20,177 nucleotides of DNA. It comes from a virus. Where the stretch lies: positions 1-20,177 of IMG/VR virus record IMGVR_UViG_3300020437_000294; one strand, 5' to 3'. Below the pieces are notes generated by a model. That model had not been told where the DNA came from. It ran no database searches and was given only the letters and a program-made list of their open reading frames with translations. Position numbers and translations under genes: made by a program. Below are positions 580 to 13,912 of this stretch, piece after piece. How positions within the stretch are numbered: the first letter of the stretch is position 1; every line of letters starts with the position of its first letter.

Positions 580-2580
580 TTAGGTGTAAGAACCATGATA
601 AGTTCCGGCTGTTGTACCGTTTGTCCATGAGTTGCCGTTATTACTCCAAATGGCTTTTCCAGCACTTCCAAAACCCCCACCTTGTCCGGGGCCAAAGTTA
701 GTATTATACGTAGCATTACCACCATCATTACCAGAGGTACCATTATTACCAAGGGTACCACCATTACCGCCAGTACCACCAACACCACCTATATTGTAAG
801 AACCATTTTGTCCAGAAGCACCATTAGTCTGATTTTGGTTGTAACCTTGGCCTTGACCACCATCACCACCACGGCCACCGTGATAGTAAGCAAGTTGCTG
901 TCCTGTTCGACCGGCACCGCCGCCGCCGCCGCCACCTCCTCCGCCAGAAATCTGACCGCCTGAAAGGTTGTTTATTGTTGCGTTTGCACTATCTACTTGT
1001 ATTCCGTGACCACCATTTTCACCACCTTGACCATTTTGAGGGTTAGTTTGGTATTGTTGACTACCTAAACCACCATCACCGCCTAAACCACCTCTTCCTA
1101 TTACGGTTCCTGATACATTTAGTGTTAGTGTACCACCCATACCAGAAGAAATTAATATAGCTGAACCTCCAGCATTAGTTCCTCCAACTGTAACTCCGCT
1201 TGGAACGTTGTATATTTTTGATATATTAGCACTCCAATTTGAACCAAATACACTTGATAAAACTATATTTGTAGAATTATTAGTTGCATTAAATGTTGGT
1301 ACAATGTCTACTTTACCTTCTATATAGGCAATACTACCAGAAATAAAGAATATAGTACAAAAACCTCTAGCTGGTATAGTATTATTTCCAGTAGGGTAAG
1401 AAGGATCATTAGTATTATATATAGTTAGACCTGATCCTGTAAAAAGATTTTTAAAGCTTGCACTATTATTAACAAGAATTACTCTATCACCAGCAGAAAA
1501 AACATTATTTGGTATGGTAATGTCTCCAGATAAATTTATAGCTTTGCCAGCATCAGTAGCTACTAAAGTATAAGCATTACTTTGATTGTTTATAGATGTT
1601 GTAGCAGCAGGTAAATTAGTTAAATTAGAGCCATCACCATATAAAGTATCTGCATAAATATTTTGCCAACGTACAGCATTAGTTCCTAAATCATATGTAC
1701 TGTCAGCAACAGGAATTATATTACCGCCAGATTTATGTGTACCTTGATAACCACCAAATTCCCAAACTTGACCTATGCTACTACCGCCACCAAAGGCACC
1801 TGTAACTTCTAGATAACCAAGATTAGTTAAACGTAAATACGGTTGAACTCCAGTGCCTAAAGTGAATTGGAGTGATCCAAATATTTGTACAGCTTGATTA
1901 GAACCACTTCTACCAAAAACAGTACTAGTAGGATTAACAGTAAAAGTTGAATCTGTACCATCAAGAGCTACTTTAAATTGACCTGTGCCAGCATCAATTA
2001 TTTCAGCACTAGAATTTCCTTCTGTTATAGAGTCAGTAGCTAGACCTGAAATTTTACTTGCATCTATAGCTGCATTAGATGCAATCTTATCGTTGGTAAT
2101 TGCACCATCTAAAATTTTATCTGTAGTTACCGCGTCATCTGCAATTTTTATGGTCGTAACTGCATCAGTAGCAAGTTTACCTTCTGTTATACTTCCATCT
2201 GTTACAGAGCCAGAAATTTTAAACTGACCAGCCATATTAATGTGGCTACTGCATTGGTAATACAAAAGGTCAGGAGCATCATGCGGTACTGTAAATACTA
2301 TTTCTGTACCACCTGCACCACCATTATTTGTTACCCCTGTGCTGTATTGATCGTTAGTGCCACCATTAGCAATACTGGTTTTTATATAGAAAGGGTGTTG
2401 TCCACTAGCATTTCTATTTTCAAAGATATAAGTATGACCTCTATTGAGATATAGCGTAGGGTCATTTACTGCACCTGTAAGACCTTTACCTGTGAATGTA
2501 TAGTGATTTGTGCCACTAGCACCTAAAACATAACGTAAGGTATCTTCTATTAGTCTTGATGTAACTTGTGTTAAAGGCAT
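580..2580 (-). CDS. Second tail fibre / adhesin with cupredoxin-like N-domain and Gly-rich tip
   Basis: A 666-aa mosaic fibre. Residues ~24-123 form a cupredoxin-like domain with His62 (in QHPFYI), Cys110, His113 and Met116, the spacing of a type-1 copper site. Residues ~126-190 carry about ten-residue ADDAVTTDKI-type repeats, as in the fibre gene before it. Residues ~286-323 contain the DLGTNAVRWQNIYA motif common in fibre shafts. A small beta domain (~335-425) follows. Residues ~495-640 are dominated by GG-X-GG motifs, including ten consecutive glycines at 546-555, then a short aromatic tail ending HGSYT. The Gly-rich end resembles the polyglycine-helix adhesins at the tips of some T4-like long fibres (phage S16 gp38), so I infer that it contacts the receptor. 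The start lies 11 nt after the previous gene; no clear Shine-Dalgarno is seen. It lacks a T7 gp17 N-domain, so it probably attaches through another protein. Confidence 0.85.
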   Translation of the reverse strand: MPLTQVTSRLIEDTLRYVLGASGTNHYTFTGKGLTGAVNDPTLYLNRGHTYIFENRNASGQHPFYIKTSIANGGTNDQYSTGVTNNGGAGGTEIVFTVPHDAPDLLYYQCSSHINMAGQFKISGSVTDGSITEGKLATDAVTTIKIADDAVTTDKILDGAITNDKIASNAAIDASKISGLATDSITEGNSSAEIIDAGTGQFKVALDGTDSTFTVNPTSTVFGRSGSNQAVQIFGSLQFTLGTGVQPYLRLTNLGYLEVTGAFGGGSSIGQVWEFGGYQGTHKSGGNIIPVADSTYDLGTNAVRWQNIYADTLYGDGSNLTNLPAATTSINNQSNAYTLVATDAGKAINLSGDITIPNNVFSAGDRVILVNNSASFKNLFTGSGLTIYNTNDPSYPTGNNTIPARGFCTIFFISGSIAYIEGKVDIVPTFNATNNSTNIVLSSVFGSNWSANISKIYNVPSGVTVGGTNAGGSAILISSGMGGTLTLNVSGTVIGRGGLGGDGGLGSQQYQTNPQNGQGGENGGHGIQVDSANATINNLSGGQISGGGGGGGGGGAGRTGQQLAYYHGGRGGDGGQGQGYNQNQTNGASGQNGSYNIGGVGGTGGNGGTLGNNGTSGNDGGNATYNTNFGPGQGGGFGSAGKAIWSNNGNSWTNGTTAGTYHGSYT
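661..1098 (-). repeat. Glycine-rich repeat domain of fibre 2
   Basis: Residues ~495-640 of the fibre consist largely of GG-X-GG and G-N-G motifs, with a (GGX)n codon run near 916-950 that is locally much more GC-rich than the rest of the window. The pattern fits a packed polyglycine type II helix bundle. Confidence 0.7.
2212..2511 (-). other. Cupredoxin-like domain (within fibre 2)
   Basis: Residues ~24-123. Visible signatures are NDPTLYLNRGHTYIF, then HPF (His62), and a C-terminal strand ending YYQCSSHINMAG with Cys110, His113 and Met116. Known type-1 copper proteins use His, Cys, His and Met in this order with a short Cys-to-Met loop. Whether copper is bound is not shown by the sequence. 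Confidence 0.65.
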
Positions 2581-2591
2581 AGTAAACTAAC

Positions 2592-5234
2592 TTATGTTTT
2601 CATTATATAGCAGAGTGCATAGTAGGGAGGTAATGTGTCGACTGTCGCACTACCAGAACCACTAAAACTGTGTGTGTGATTACCTAAACCAAAGCTAGTA
2701 GCAAGTGGAAAACCAGCCATACCAGTAGCACTTGGGGTTCCAGTATTACCAGAAACACTTACGGTAATAGAATCAGTTGTAGCACCACCTGTAGCTCCTA
2801 CAGCATAAGAGTTACCAGCACCTACTACAAATCTATTTCGTAAATCAGGTGTGCTATTAGTACCATCACATAGAACAAACCCAGAAGGTATAGCGTTAGC
2901 TGCCCCTGACCAAAGTATTATCATGCCACTTACAAATGCTTGTGGTATTGTTATTGTTTCAAATGTAGGATCTGCTCCGTTGTTTGCTCTTAAAAACTTG
3001 CCATCATTACTTGATGTGCCATGTTCTAGTTTAGCTAAAGATATAGAGTCATCTGCAAGTTTAGATCCAGCTATATTTGCTGTTGCTGTAATGTGACTAT
3101 TATCAATTTCTGCTGCTATCTTTGTACCTGTAACTGCATCATCTGCAATCTTAGCTGTTGATATAGCATTATTAGCTATATTAGCATTTTCAACTGCGTT
3201 ATCAGCAATTAAAGAATTAGTTATTGCATCTGCTGCAATGCTTGTAGTGCCAACTGCATTATTTGCTATTTTAGAGTTAGTCACGGCTCCAGCCGCTATC
3301 TTAGTTTCCGTAACTGCATTGTTACTTAGTGCAGTATTATCAACTGCTCCAGCAGAAAGTTTTGTACTATCAACTGCATCATCAGCAATCTTTGCCGTAG
3401 TAACTTCACCTGCACCTATTTTTGCTTGTGTAACTGCATTATTTGCTATTCTGGCTGTAGTCACAGCATCTACCGCAATTTTTGATTCTATTACTGCTGA
3501 GTTTTGTAATATAGCAGAGTTTACTGTGTTATTACTTGGAGTTCCAATATTAACAGTAGAACCCATTACTACTGCGTGATAGCTTGCACCAGTAGCAGGG
3601 GCAGCAGCTAATTTAACCGTACTTCCATCTAAAGCAAAACCTTCTGTAGGTGTAGATGTACCAGCATTAGGTTTCTGAACTACACCCTCTATTATTAATA
3701 AAACTTGTTGTGCATTTGTAGGTGCATCACTAAGAGTAAAATTTTGTGTACTGCCATCAAATGCAGGGCTAAGTGTAGATATAAAGAAGTTACCTATACT
3801 TTGTACTTCTTCCCAAGCAGAGCTTGTACCGTTATACACAAGCATTTTACCTGTGCCTGTGTTAAAGAATAAATCTCCATTATCTAAGCTGGTCGTAGGG
3901 TTGCTAGATCCAACTCTATATCTTTCTGAAAAGTCGTTAATATCTCCACTTAAACTTACAAGATCATCTTCTCTTAAAGTTGCTTTGTGGTATGTATAGT
4001 TTTGACCTGCACCTGTAGAAACAACAAGAAATCTTACACCAGCAGTAACAGAAGTTCCACGAAAGTTTGTAGCAATACCAGATATATTTACTGTTGTACC
4101 ATCAAGGGTTGCTCCACTAGCTGTACCAGTACTGCTAACTGCCATACCACCTGCATCTGCAATACTTATTACAACACCTGATGCTGGTTGTGTATTAGGA
4201 AAAGAGCTTTCATTCGCTATTGCTTCTAAGCCACCAATAGGTGCTAACTGTGCAGCTACATAATCTACGATTGCACCACTTGTAGGAAATTTAGTATCGT
4301 CATCAGTTATAGTGGTTGCTTTTTGCATACCATCTATTTGATTAAGGTCTGCTATATCAGCAGTTAAAGCTGTACTGTCAGCTAATTTAGTAGCTGTAGC
4401 TGATTGCATACCAGCAAGAATAACTAACTCTGCATCTGCTATTTCAGAAGTTGTAACTGAGTTTTGTGCAAGATGACTAGAATCAAGAGGACTACCTGCT
4501 ATAAGACTTTTTATTTCTGTTACTGTTTGATCTGCGGTAGCACCTGCTTCTATTCCATTTAACTTGCTGTGGTCAGCATCAGTAAATACGTTGCTATCAC
4601 TTGCTGCTTCTACTGCTGCTCTTATTTCAGCATTTGTTTGATCGCCAGTTGCACCTGCTTCTATACCATCAAGTTTTGAATGGTCTGCATCTGTAAAGAC
4701 ATTACTATCATTTGCACTATCTACAAGTGTTCTTATTTCTGACGCTGTTTGATCTTGTGTTGCATTGTCTTCAATACCATTTAACTTGCTATGATCTGCA
4801 TCAGTAAAAACATTACTATCAGTAGCAGCTTCTACTAATGTTCTTATCTCTGCTGCGGTTTGATCTCCTGTAGCTCCTTCTTCAATGCCACCTAATTTAT
4901 CTGTAATCTCTTGTTGAGCAAATAATATTTGGTCACTATTATTATCAAGGTCTGTTTCTGTTAAAACACTACCATCAGCAAAGTCTACTTTCTTTGCACT
5001 TATATCTGTATCTCTTTGAAATCTAATATTGTTTGTACCAGAAGGAGGTATGTTACCAGAAGTAAAAGTAACTGATGAACCACTAATATTGTAGTGTGTG
5101 CCTAGTGTTTTAAGAACACCACCAACTGTAACATCAACTTCTGTATTCTCTAAGAAAGAAAAAGATATAGCAAAAGTGGCTGTACTACCATTTCCGTTAT
5201 GGGTTTGTGACGTAGATGTGGTATTAGTAGCCAT
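2592..5234 (-). CDS. T7 gp17-like tail fibre with tail-collar C-terminus
   Basis: An 880-aa fibre. Residues ~1-113 match the T7 gp17 N-terminal tail-attachment domain: FAISFSFLENTEVDV, FQRDTDI, and the VDFADGSVLTETDLD segment before a helix. This is the part that docks to the nozzle in T7. Residues 113-248 hold a 37-residue repeat (KLxGIExxATxDQT), nearly four copies. A second tract of about ten-residue DAVTTAKIADD-type repeats runs over ~567-738. The C-terminal ~115 residues are a phage tail-collar domain (GFVLCDGTNSTPDLRNRFVVGAG, then GNHTHS and PPYYALCYIMKT). The HTH within it recalls the metal-binding His pair of T4 gp12-type fibres. It is far longer than T7 gp17 (553 aa). AAGAGG at 5244-5249, nine bases before the ATG, is a good ribosome binding site lying in the end of the upstream gene. 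Confidence 0.92.
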   Translation of the reverse strand: MATNTTSTSQTHNGNGSTATFAISFSFLENTEVDVTVGGVLKTLGTHYNISGSSVTFTSGNIPPSGTNNIRFQRDTDISAKKVDFADGSVLTETDLDNNSDQILFAQQEITDKLGGIEEGATGDQTAAEIRTLVEAATDSNVFTDADHSKLNGIEDNATQDQTASEIRTLVDSANDSNVFTDADHSKLDGIEAGATGDQTNAEIRAAVEAASDSNVFTDADHSKLNGIEAGATADQTVTEIKSLIAGSPLDSSHLAQNSVTTSEIADAELVILAGMQSATATKLADSTALTADIADLNQIDGMQKATTITDDDTKFPTSGAIVDYVAAQLAPIGGLEAIANESSFPNTQPASGVVISIADAGGMAVSSTGTASGATLDGTTVNISGIATNFRGTSVTAGVRFLVVSTGAGQNYTYHKATLREDDLVSLSGDINDFSERYRVGSSNPTTSLDNGDLFFNTGTGKMLVYNGTSSAWEEVQSIGNFFISTLSPAFDGSTQNFTLSDAPTNAQQVLLIIEGVVQKPNAGTSTPTEGFALDGSTVKLAAAPATGASYHAVVMGSTVNIGTPSNNTVNSAILQNSAVIESKIAVDAVTTARIANNAVTQAKIGAGEVTTAKIADDAVDSTKLSAGAVDNTALSNNAVTETKIAAGAVTNSKIANNAVGTTSIAADAITNSLIADNAVENANIANNAISTAKIADDAVTGTKIAAEIDNSHITATANIAGSKLADDSISLAKLEHGTSSNDGKFLRANNGADPTFETITIPQAFVSGMIILWSGAANAIPSGFVLCDGTNSTPDLRNRFVVGAGNSYAVGATGGATTDSITVSVSGNTGTPSATGMAGFPLATSFGLGNHTHSFSGSGSATVDTLPPYYALCYIMKT
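3020..3535 (-). repeat. About 30-bp (10-aa) degenerate repeats in fibre 1
   Basis: About 16 imperfect units of the type (D/N)AV(T)xxKIA(D/N) in tandem, encoding roughly residues 567-738. On the plus strand the unit reads like actgcatcatctgcaatctt. Similar units occur in fibre 2 (about 2020-2200). Confidence 0.8.
4491..4898 (-). repeat. 111-bp (37-aa) tandem repeat in fibre 1, ~3.7 copies
   Basis: Units start at residues 113, 150, 187 and 224, each 37 residues apart. All contain KL(G/N/D)GIE..AT.DQT..EI, and the first three also contain DSNVFTDADHS. The last unit degenerates after about residue 248. Such KLxGIExGA units are typical of fibre shafts. Confidence 0.9.
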
Positions 5235-10200: not shown

Positions 10201-12918
10201 TTAGTTCTTTAAAAACTGTTTATAAGAATTATTTTTGTATGCACTCCAAGCATTAAGCCCTTGCTCATCATATAGTCGCTTGGCTGCAATTACATTAATA
10301 ATAGGGTCGTATAACTCTTCTTCAGATTCAATATCAAATACATTTAATAATCTGTCTCTATCATCTTTCATATTTAGTTGTAACAAGCCTATAGAAAATT
10401 CATTTTCTTTTTTTGGATCAGTTCCAGATTTGACAGTATCAATCATTGGATCACCTGCTGACTCTGCCATTGCCACAGCAGCCATAATTTTTGCAATGTT
10501 TGGTTCAAAACCTACAGCTAATAGCATTTCTTCTATTTTAGGTTGAGGTATTACTTTTGTCTTGTCTGTATCTTTTAAAATATCGTCTAATGCTTTTATC
10601 TGATTATTTTTTACTTCTTTCATATTTATCCTTTCAACCATTGGTACAATTAATTCGTCACCTACTCTTATCAAATCTGCGTTAGTTATATTGTTTGCTT
10701 CCATAAACGCTTTTAAAGGCACATTAAATTCTTCTGCTAACTGACTTAAAGTATCTCCCTGTTCAACTTCAACTGTAGTAGGTGAGTCACCACTAAAAGC
10801 ACTAGCTTCTAAATCATCACTTAGTAATTTTTCATTTCTTGTCTCTGTTTGATTGTCTTCAAAAGTTGCATTATAAAAATCAACATTAAAATTTTCAAAT
10901 GATTTTATTTTTAAATTTTGACGTAACGATTCACCAGCAGGTGTAACTGAACCATTAATAGATACAACTGTAGTAGTTGGTCCTACTTGTAATTCATTAG
11001 TATTAACTTCACTAAATAACTTTGTATTTGTATCGTAAGTTAAAACTTTTTGTTCTTGTATATTTACTGTCTTGCCATCATCTTGATTATCTTTATTATT
11101 TTCTTCTTCTACTTCTACAAATTCTTGTGATAAATCTAAAGCTGGATCATAAAAATTATAAGAACCAAACCTTCTTGAATTTTTTATTTTTCTTAAATTA
11201 CCTAAATACCAATTTCTAACTGTTGTTGTCTTACCATCTTTATCTATTTGAGCATCAAGTCCTCCATTTTCTTTTACTAATTTTTTTAATTCTGTATTCA
11301 AATCTTGCATTTTATCTACGTCATCAGCATCTTTATAACTAACTACACCTGATGCTAAATTTACTTTTCCAATAGTTCTTTGACCATACTTTATTAACTC
11401 TTTCATTGCTGGAAATCTTTGTTCTAAAGTTTTACCTTCTGTTTTACTTAAATAAGTTTTTAATTTAGTATATTTTTCTCTGTCTGCTTTAGAAGCATTT
11501 GGTCCTAAAGCTTGCATGACATCTGTTAGTTGTATTAAGGCTTGACTTTGCGTTACTGTACCTGCATCATATTCCGTTTCTAATTCAAAAAAGAAATCAT
11601 CAACACTAAAGTTTCTAAGATCATATTGTTTATATAAAAATTCAATTTGCTCTGGGTATTTCTCAGCTAGTGCATCTAATGTATTCCCTATATTTTTGAA
11701 ATAATTTAGTGCTTCTTTACCATCTTTAAATTGAGTACGAGAAAAATCTAGATTATTTAAAGTATCAGATATAGTATTTTGATCGCTTATCTTATTGTAA
11801 TCGTTCTGTTTTTTCTTTATATCTTCTTTTTTGTCATATACATCTGTTAGTAGAGTTTCAATTTTATCTTCACCATCTGCTATATAAAAACTACTTAAAG
11901 GCTGTTGTATTACATTTCCATTTTTTAATATTGTTTTTGGTCCTACTTTTAAATTACCTATCCAGTTAATATATTCTTCTACTTCTTCATAAGCAATATC
12001 CATATCAAGATTATTGCTTTCATAATAATCAAGAATTTTTAATACATTTGTTTTTACTTGTCCTATCATTTTTGAAGGCGATACTGCGGTAGCAAGACCT
12101 CTGTTAACCATAGAATCTACATTATCTTGTAATTCTTCTAAAGCTAAAAATTCTCCCTGCGAAAGACCATTATTTTTTATTCTGTCTTTTTCTGTATAGT
12201 TATCATCTATTAAATTTAATTCTATATTGTCGTTATAGTTATCTATGCTAAACCAAGAATTTAAAACTGAATCGTTAAACAATATACTAGCTTGTTTAAT
12301 TTTTGACTCTGCTAACTTTGTTTCTTGGTCGTTAAATACTTTTTGTATTGCAAGATTTTGTTTTGGTAATATATGTTCTTTTATTAAACTAGCTCTTATA
12401 CCTCTTGTATTAGCTAGTTGTGAGCTTTGAAATTCAGTAAGTGCTTTATCAAAAGCTTCAGAGTTTACATCAAATTGAGATAAAGGTTGTTGTATGGTTG
12501 TACCATTTGGTAAATCAACATCTACAACATATTCATCAAAAAACTTTTTTGTTTTTGCTTCTTGTCCATTGGCTATATTAATTGCTAATTGTTTTTCTAT
12601 TCCATATTGCATAAATCTATTTGTCCCAAGAAAATGTCTAAAAGTTTTTTTATCAGTATTTGCTTCTACTTCTTTTCTTATTTCTATAAGTTCTTTAGGT
12701 GATGCACCTGCCACTTTTAACATTCCTTCTTCTATATCTCTTTTTCTATTTTCTGCTGTTTTAACTTGTATAAATTTTTGCAATGTAGGATTAACAACTT
12801 CTAAGATTGCTGCTAAATCTGCCATACTACTTTTTCGTGTAGCAAGAACAGGTTGCACAAAAGTATTAACTGGTCTTCTAAAACTTTCGCCTGATGTACT
12901 TTGAAAACTTGATGACAT
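10201..12918 (-). CDS. gp15-like internal virion protein with LysM and lytic transglycosylase domains
   Basis: A 905-aa protein in the T7 gp15 position (T7 gp15 is 747 aa). Residues 1 to ~700 are mostly helical, charged and without a recognisable domain, as expected for the ejectosome tube. Residues ~713-757 are a LysM peptidoglycan-binding domain (VEVEQGDTLSQLAEEFNVPL, then VGDELIVP). Residues ~790-905 form a lysozyme/SLT-like domain: AAVAMAESAGDP supplies the likely catalytic Glu819, followed by FSIGLLQLN, corresponding to the G-L-[ML]-Q motif, and AAKRLYDEQGLNAWSAY near the end. In T7 the wall-cutting domain is on gp16, so the activity has moved between neighbouring ejection proteins. The start is four bases after the gp14-like stop. 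Confidence 0.9.
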   Translation of the reverse strand: MSSSFQSTSGESFRRPVNTFVQPVLATRKSSMADLAAILEVVNPTLQKFIQVKTAENRKRDIEEGMLKVAGASPKELIEIRKEVEANTDKKTFRHFLGTNRFMQYGIEKQLAINIANGQEAKTKKFFDEYVVDVDLPNGTTIQQPLSQFDVNSEAFDKALTEFQSSQLANTRGIRASLIKEHILPKQNLAIQKVFNDQETKLAESKIKQASILFNDSVLNSWFSIDNYNDNIELNLIDDNYTEKDRIKNNGLSQGEFLALEELQDNVDSMVNRGLATAVSPSKMIGQVKTNVLKILDYYESNNLDMDIAYEEVEEYINWIGNLKVGPKTILKNGNVIQQPLSSFYIADGEDKIETLLTDVYDKKEDIKKKQNDYNKISDQNTISDTLNNLDFSRTQFKDGKEALNYFKNIGNTLDALAEKYPEQIEFLYKQYDLRNFSVDDFFFELETEYDAGTVTQSQALIQLTDVMQALGPNASKADREKYTKLKTYLSKTEGKTLEQRFPAMKELIKYGQRTIGKVNLASGVVSYKDADDVDKMQDLNTELKKLVKENGGLDAQIDKDGKTTTVRNWYLGNLRKIKNSRRFGSYNFYDPALDLSQEFVEVEEENNKDNQDDGKTVNIQEQKVLTYDTNTKLFSEVNTNELQVGPTTTVVSINGSVTPAGESLRQNLKIKSFENFNVDFYNATFEDNQTETRNEKLLSDDLEASAFSGDSPTTVEVEQGDTLSQLAEEFNVPLKAFMEANNITNADLIRVGDELIVPMVERINMKEVKNNQIKALDDILKDTDKTKVIPQPKIEEMLLAVGFEPNIAKIMAAVAMAESAGDPMIDTVKSGTDPKKENEFSIGLLQLNMKDDRDRLLNVFDIESEEELYDPIINVIAAKRLYDEQGLNAWSAYKNNSYKQFLKN

Positions 12919-13459: not shown

Positions 13460-13912
13460 TTAAGCAATCCTCAGAAATTCATAAAATGGTTTTTCATGTT
13501 GACCATACTTTTCGTGATACTTTATAAAAACAAAACCGAGAGCTTCTAGCCACTTTATAGCAGCATGATTCTCTGCATATACAAAATTATATAAGACTTT
13601 ATAAGATTTCAACAAATTATCTACCCATTCTCTACCTTTTCTAATAAGTTGTATTTTATATTTTTTATTTTCAAATAATTCATCTGTCATAATACACCAT
13701 ATACAACCATCTTTTATTACTCCACATAATCCCATAGGTTGATCCTTATCACCAGCTATAGTCAATACTTTTTCGCCATACAAATAAGACAAACGCAAAG
13801 CATCTTCTGGATCTTGTCCTGTTTGATATTGACTTTCAAGTCGATCCATCATTCTCATGTTTTGACATACATAGTTAAGATCTGATAGTTTTGTTTTTCT
13901 TAAATATCCCAT
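13460..13912 (-). CDS. gp13-like internal virion protein A, GNAT fold
   Basis: A 150-aa protein (T7 gp13 is 138 aa) between tail tube B and the gp14-like gene. It starts MGYLRKTKLSDLNYVCQNM, and the C-terminal half has the GNAT-type YAENHAAIKWLEALGFVF segment, in which an Asn precedes the last helix and the LGF strand. Phage gp13 proteins share this acetyltransferase-like fold; they are needed for virion assembly or internal core formation, and no acetyl transfer has been assigned that I know of. The visible GNAT pattern alone would allow annotation as an acetyltransferase, but context favours the structural role. Its ATG shares one base with the upstream TAA. Confidence 0.85.
   Translation of the reverse strand: MGYLRKTKLSDLNYVCQNMRMMDRLESQYQTGQDPEDALRLSYLYGEKVLTIAGDKDQPMGLCGVIKDGCIWCIMTDELFENKKYKIQLIRKGREWVDNLLKSYKVLYNFVYAENHAAIKWLEALGFVFIKYHEKYGQHEKPFYEFLRIA

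Follow-up and report, generated by a model that had tools for sequence, protein, structure and literature searches.

A cupredoxin domain with a predicted type-1-like metal site near the N-terminus of a cyanophage tail-fibre protein

Our analysis indicates that residues 27-122 of a 666-aa tail-fibre protein, encoded by the minus-strand ORF 580-2580 of an IMG/VR viral fragment (the window, that is, the whole stretch of 20,177 nucleotides analysed), are a genuine cupredoxin by sequence and fold evidence alike. By all of this evidence, a type-1-like metal site is predicted to be intact in this copy. We consider it probable that this true cupredoxin acts as a fibre joint or anchor which takes up copper and is stabilised by it; metal binding, the identity of the metal and its stabilising role are what we infer. 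The cupredoxin superfamily itself is already known, and the phage proteins concerned have positional names or are annotated as 'hypothetical'; some copies may already be labelled in fold databases. No description of a phage-tail or cyanophage cupredoxin, blue copper protein or plastocyanin was found in open-licence PMC papers, and a type-1-like site, as predicted here, built into a tail-fibre joint seems to be undescribed.

A cupredoxin domain in an apparent second tail fibre

The 666-aa fibre consists of a short N-terminal tag, the cupredoxin domain, repeats of the ITxxKIADDAVT type, a middle region and a Gly-rich C-terminal tip (Table 1). A sequence-only reading had proposed that a plastocyanin-like domain with His62, Cys110, His113 and Met116 opens the fibre, and these four residues are exact in the translation of 2212-2580 on the minus strand. 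The T7 anchor (Phage_T7_tail, PF03906) was not found in this fibre by Pfam and is present in the adjoining ORF 2592-5234. Since the gene directly follows this gp17-type fibre, it looks like a second fibre without a gp17 anchor of its own.

Table 1. Features of the fibre locus, in coordinates of the window
Feature	Position	Strand	Basis
Second tail-fibre/adhesin gene, 666 aa	580..2580	-	ORF; PHROG tail-fibre matches
N-terminal tag, aa 1-26, MPLTQVTSRLIEDTLRYVLGASGT.., kept across relatives	2503..2580	-	comparison of relatives
Cupredoxin domain, aa 27-122	2215..2502	-	family profile, alignment, predicted fold
His62 codon CAC, HPF motif, predicted first equatorial ligand	2395..2397	-	translation, alignment, hhalign
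Cys110 codon TGC, predicted thiolate ligand	2251..2253	-	translation, alignment, profile, hhalign
His113 codon CAC, predicted second equatorial His ligand	2242..2244	-	translation, alignment, profile, hhalign
Met116 codon ATG, predicted axial ligand; Gln in some relatives	2233..2235	-	translation, alignment, census
Repeats of type GSITEGKLATDAVTTIKIADDAVTTDKI, domain-to-tip linker	2020..2214	-	sequence; PHROG matches 117-205
Gly-rich C-terminal tip, aa ~470-666, differs between relatives	580..1170	-	weak similarity to phrog_2056 (host-specificity tail fibre family)
Main tail fibre, N-terminal anchor of the T7 gp17 type (PF03906); immediate upstream neighbour of the cupredoxin fibre	2592..5234	-	Pfam

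The gene order of the window is T7-like (capsid, nozzle, internal proteins and gp17-type fibre, from Pfam and PHROG), and the nearest sequenced relative at the domain, by tblastn against phage records, is Prochlorococcus phage P-SCSP2, with 88.6% identity over aa 1-123. This phage is a member of the MPP-C lineage (PMC9860041), and we therefore place the virus of the window among the T7-like cyanopodoviruses near that lineage. Cysteine is scarce in the virion proteins counted, with four in total across five other virion proteins and two in the 666-aa fibre, which makes the retained cysteine of the fibre noteworthy. Among the other genes of the window, 10201-12918 (minus strand) encodes an internal virion protein that carries LysM and lysozyme-like (SLT_3) domains towards its C-terminal end, and 13460-13912 (minus strand) a 150-aa protein of the 'internal virion protein' family phrog_308 that has weak acetyltransferase matches as well.

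As a single sequence, the domain of the window matched no Pfam family, PF00127 (Copper-bind) included, and phmmer against the PDB gave only chance matches to antibody light chains; because such searches were uninformative, a family profile was needed. When this profile was run against all PDB sequences, type-1 copper proteins led the matches, with a copper nitrite reductase (CuNIR) fusion at E 5e-6, plastocyanin at E 5e-5 and amicyanin at E 1.7e-4. In the printed plastocyanin and amicyanin alignments from HMMER, C, H and M fall on the ligands and the first His is two residues off. The first His comes into register solely in hhalign comparisons with HPL-type bacterial proteins. One of these, L165, passes PF00127 (33.5 bits) and is found by the phage family profile as well; with this protein and three similar PF00127-type bacterial proteins, H62, C110, H113 and M116 are all in register (E 1.6e-11), and the phage loop is two residues shorter between His and Met than in the four bacterial proteins. 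The His-Met spacing of the phage CxxHxxM motif is that of amicyanin, and the first ligand is set in an HPF motif, as in multicopper oxidases, rather than in a PHN motif. The phage domain thus shares with PF00127 (plastocyanin, azurin, amicyanin and pseudoazurin) the cupredoxin fold and four type-1 ligands in register, but it is a tail-fibre module and no soluble electron carrier. The Copper-bind cut-off of 21.2 bits is passed by a phage copy in Pfam, namely the second cupredoxin copy of the P-SSM2 tail spike (23.3 bits).

The predicted structure agrees with this assignment. An AlphaFold2 model of the domain (pLDDT 89.3, pTM 0.81) has eight strands in cupredoxin order. Structure prediction and comparison had been named as a check on the plastocyanin-like reading, and the predicted strand order places the ligands as in cupredoxins: H62 immediately precedes strand 64-67, and the other three, C110, H113 and M116, fall in the loop between the final two strands (105-110 and 117-123). 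Foldseek against the PDB gave 72 matches at E <= 1e-3, starting from E 1.7e-5. The best 50 of these 72 are nearly all cupredoxins or multicopper oxidases, the rest being factor V domains, whose fold is that of cupredoxins too. AcoP, rusticyanin, CueO, a three-domain nitrite reductase, laccases, plastocyanin and a Nitrosopumilus cupredoxin are among the PDB matches. Against solved cupredoxins the model reaches only modest TM-scores of about 0.45-0.55, which makes the fold class secure and the match not a close one.

Two other PDB leads were set aside. An immunoglobulin fold, prompted by the antibody light-chain matches, was dropped because the profile and fold searches both give cupredoxins, and a match to phage orf16 (9eg4) runs via low-complexity KLATDAVT repeats and not via the cupredoxin domain. 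In BFVD, three 'beta-sandwich proteins' of Pithovirus LCPAC and Marseillevirus LCMAC (A0A481Z6J5, A0A481YWX9 and A0A481Z7Q7) resemble the domain model at E about 1e-7.

These structural relatives bear on which metal the site might hold. Zn(II) and Cd(II) can occupy Cys/His sites as well, and copper in seawater is scarce and complexed, so it could be argued that the natural metal is another one, such as zinc, or that any copper is adventitious, with the site being structural and not copper-specific. We find this distinctly unlikely, given that the top solved relatives in both the profile and the Foldseek searches are type-1 copper proteins and that Met is rarely used in zinc sites.

A constant base and exchanged tips across marine phages

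Relatives of the domain are encoded in 338 of 50,697 GenBank phage records (tblastn, E <= 1e-3), all 338 being named Synechococcus, Prochlorococcus, 'cyanophage' or marine virus; Pelagibacter phages join them at looser tblastn thresholds. A scan of IMG/VR with the peptide pattern AP[DSN][TLV]LYYQ, which was derived from the closer alignment set and contains no ligand, yielded at least 589 confirmed relatives. The statement of the sequence-only reading that similar domains occur in other marine phage tail proteins is thereby borne out. The locations of these homologues include the gp9 C-terminus, the proximal subunits of long tail fibres, tail spikes and giant structural proteins; elsewhere, many copies lie within giant proteins, and the domain is not confined to joints.

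Matches to PHROG families point to the same kind of protein. The domain matches PHROG 892 tail fibres and PHROG 677 (E 4e-33 for the latter), which in T4-like cyanophages is the gp9 baseplate wedge-tail fibre connector; PHROG 677 matches in 50 of 50 rows. In T4 itself, gp9 links the baseplate and the long tail fibre. The C-terminal ~105 residues of the PHROG 677 connector (305-410 of 412) are the same domain (E 1e-34). In S-SSM5, too, the domain forms the C-terminal part of a fusion, behind the T4 gp9/10 N-terminal domain. The window protein differs in that this N-terminal domain (T4_gp9_10_N, PF07880) is absent by Pfam and the cupredoxin domain lies at its N-terminus. Tail-fibre proteins of P-SCSP2, P-GSP1, P-SSM2 and S-SCSM1 also carry the domain near the N-terminus, but in the two phages whose tips were compared (P-SCSP2 and P-GSP1) the tips are unrelated or weakly related to that of the window.

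The same division is seen among close relatives. Among the viral contigs nearest the window (L001-L047), conservation is high over the first ~26 residues and over the domain, with 76 to 97 of the 97 domain residues identical, and what lies downstream is mostly unrelated, with collar-type ends, Gly-rich ends and others. Sorting 51 such proteins by C-terminal region gives 30 groups. As receptor-binding fibres are usually built from a constant base with swapped tips, the domain would be on the anchor or joint side and not on the receptor side. We suggest that it forms the conserved base of the second tail fibre, and that a receptor-binding tip may be freely exchanged between phages. The domain is thus most likely a fibre joint or anchor, with the predicted copper-type site most likely stabilising the joint. 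Cryo-EM of P-SCSP1u resolved the fibre N-termini alone (PMC10575957), so that distal modules of this kind would be missed.

The DNA of the fibre forms a mosaic in comparison with the contig L001: the cupredoxin part and the tip are each 96-100% identical, and the joining region (window 1700-2200) is 74-90% identical. A similar dip in identity occurs at 2600-3500 in the gp17-type fibre. This pattern of identity suggests recombination within the fibre genes.

Ligand conservation and joint loss

In an alignment of 22 sequences, some as little as 30% identical to the window, just six columns never vary (H, P, Y, C, H and M), and these are again the sole invariant ones in a set of 50 sequences; the two that are not ligands are P63 and Y108. 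The pattern H-x(35-60)-CxxHxxM arises in 2 of 20,000 shuffles of the 666-aa protein, and the conservation is stronger evidence against chance than this shuffle test. The ligand codons vary synonymously in close relatives (H62, CAC in 25 and CAT in 23; H113, CAC in 18 and CAT in 30; C110, TGC in 44 and TGT in 4); these relatives were picked by a motif filter, so that the codon wobble is informative and the constancy of the residues is not.

For a wider census, relatives were taken from several scans that included ligand-free patterns and ligandless queries, part of them having been recruited by ligand-containing patterns, and a profile with masked ligand columns was used to score the copies (n=106, below 80% identity). 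All four of His, Cys, His and Met are kept in 85 of the 106 non-redundant copies, and Gln replaces Met (HCHQ) in five. Where Cys is present, the first His is found in 91 of 92 copies and so is the second; where Cys is absent, each is found in two of 12. The joint retention of Cys with each His gives a Fisher P of 3e-11, a value that is indicative only, as the copies are related and it overstates their independence. Cys and both His are thus lost nearly all-or-none, as expected of a metal site and unlike residues kept for packing.

The replacement of Met by Gln fits this picture. In stellacyanins, the plant cell-surface phytocyanins, Gln naturally serves as the axial ligand, and five non-redundant phage copies resemble stellacyanin-type cupredoxins at this position, whereas the copy in the window has Met. 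Stellacyanin-like WCHxHTGQGN copies, with Gln for the axial Met and a mid-domain insertion, are found in giant structural proteins (L235, L238, L245, L246 and L249). In addition, L108, L155, L216, L218, L224, L237 and L245 have cupredoxin-like copies in which most or all ligands are gone; some of these copies share their protein with intact ones.

Conservation of the ligands in homologues was therefore confirmed for the majority and fails for a distant minority, in which they are lost, mostly together; none of the ligand-losing copies belongs to the subgroup of the window. The sequence-only reading had held that homologues retaining the fold after losing Cys and His would speak against it. We find such cases solely among distant copies, of which one was modelled: on its own alignment this ligandless copy reached pLDDT 80, and its best Foldseek matches were rusticyanin and amicyanin, both weak (E 6e-3). 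As it is still cupredoxin-like, if weakly, the fold appears to persist without the site, and would need no metal. The plastocyanin-like reading itself gains support from the profile search, the predicted fold, the in-register alignment of the ligands and their covariation.

It would be tempting to conclude from the ligand-free copies, which seem to retain a cupredoxin-like fold, that the domain serves as an attachment fold only, its four residues being kept for packing or folding and the virion domain being metal-free. A constant base with swappable tips requires no metal, and virion assembly takes place in a cytoplasm with very little free copper. We consider this unlikely, if worth weighing, on several grounds. 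Invariance is limited to the ligand positions, one Pro and one Tyr; the ligands are mostly lost jointly, whereas residues that served packing alone should drift singly; and the commonest substitution among copies that keep Cys and both His is that of Met to Gln, itself a known natural axial ligand.

Possible roles of the site and bacterial relatives

Among stabilisation, sensing and attachment, the roles originally put forward for the domain, the analysis narrows towards an attachment fold with a stabilising metal. We suggest that the site would pick up copper after release of the virion, since the copper-poor cytoplasm as the place of assembly implies that copper, if it is the metal, would be loaded elsewhere. 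The metal would most likely staple the ligand loops together, stabilising the module at the junction of the fibre with the remainder of the virion, and would render no service in electron transfer.

A more dynamic role can also be imagined, in which copper loading or redox state changes the posture of the fibre or its receptor binding, so that the phage reads copper or redox conditions at the cell surface. The position of the domain would suit this: it is found at the base of the fibre and on the gp9 connector, the point at which receptor contact is passed on to the baseplate in T4-like phages. Prochlorococcus is, moreover, copper-sensitive. Yet ligandless homologues show that the site is dispensable in other proteins, and we give such a switch only a slim chance. 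A broader conjecture, which we regard as rather unlikely, is that copper is functional in the attachment of marine cyanophages: the type-1 copper held at fibre and connector joints would have to load or change state for fibre stability or as a trigger of infection, and infection of Prochlorococcus and Synechococcus would therefore be sensitive to copper in seawater.

If the site holds copper, metalloprotein tail domains would be present in hundreds of sequenced cyanophages and in very many uncultured ones, and the attachment of viruses of the dominant ocean phototrophs would be tied to a trace metal that is both scarce and toxic. There would also be a measurable pool of virion-bound copper, and fibre joints could be followed by colour and probed by mutation. 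Should no copper be bound, the cupredoxin fold would still be a recurring fibre-joint module that stays constant while tips are swapped.

Homology to plastocyanin and amicyanin could further be read as a sign that an electron-transfer protein was captured from a cell and still docks with a redox partner of the host. This is highly improbable, as the domain sits in a fibre outside the cell and the nearest bacterial relatives found are modules of secreted multidomain proteins (an M64 peptidase with RTX repeats, collagen-like proteins) and not carriers. The bacterial relatives found are a collagen-like protein of Bacteroidetes, a betaproteobacterial repeat protein, a planctomycete protein and an alphaproteobacterial RTX/M64-peptidase protein, all of them secreted or surface multidomain proteins. 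They have the same HPF...YYxC..H..M domain as the phage fibres, but at the cell surface or in secreted form, outside a tail-fibre context. This distribution suggests a modular extracellular domain common to bacteria and phages. In the phylum of the Bacteroidetes match, the domain occurs in 8 of 148 genomes and is thus sparse. In an alphaproteobacterial single-cell genome (L161, 3-3869, plus strand), the cupredoxin domain, an M64 peptidase and RTX repeats are found together in one protein.
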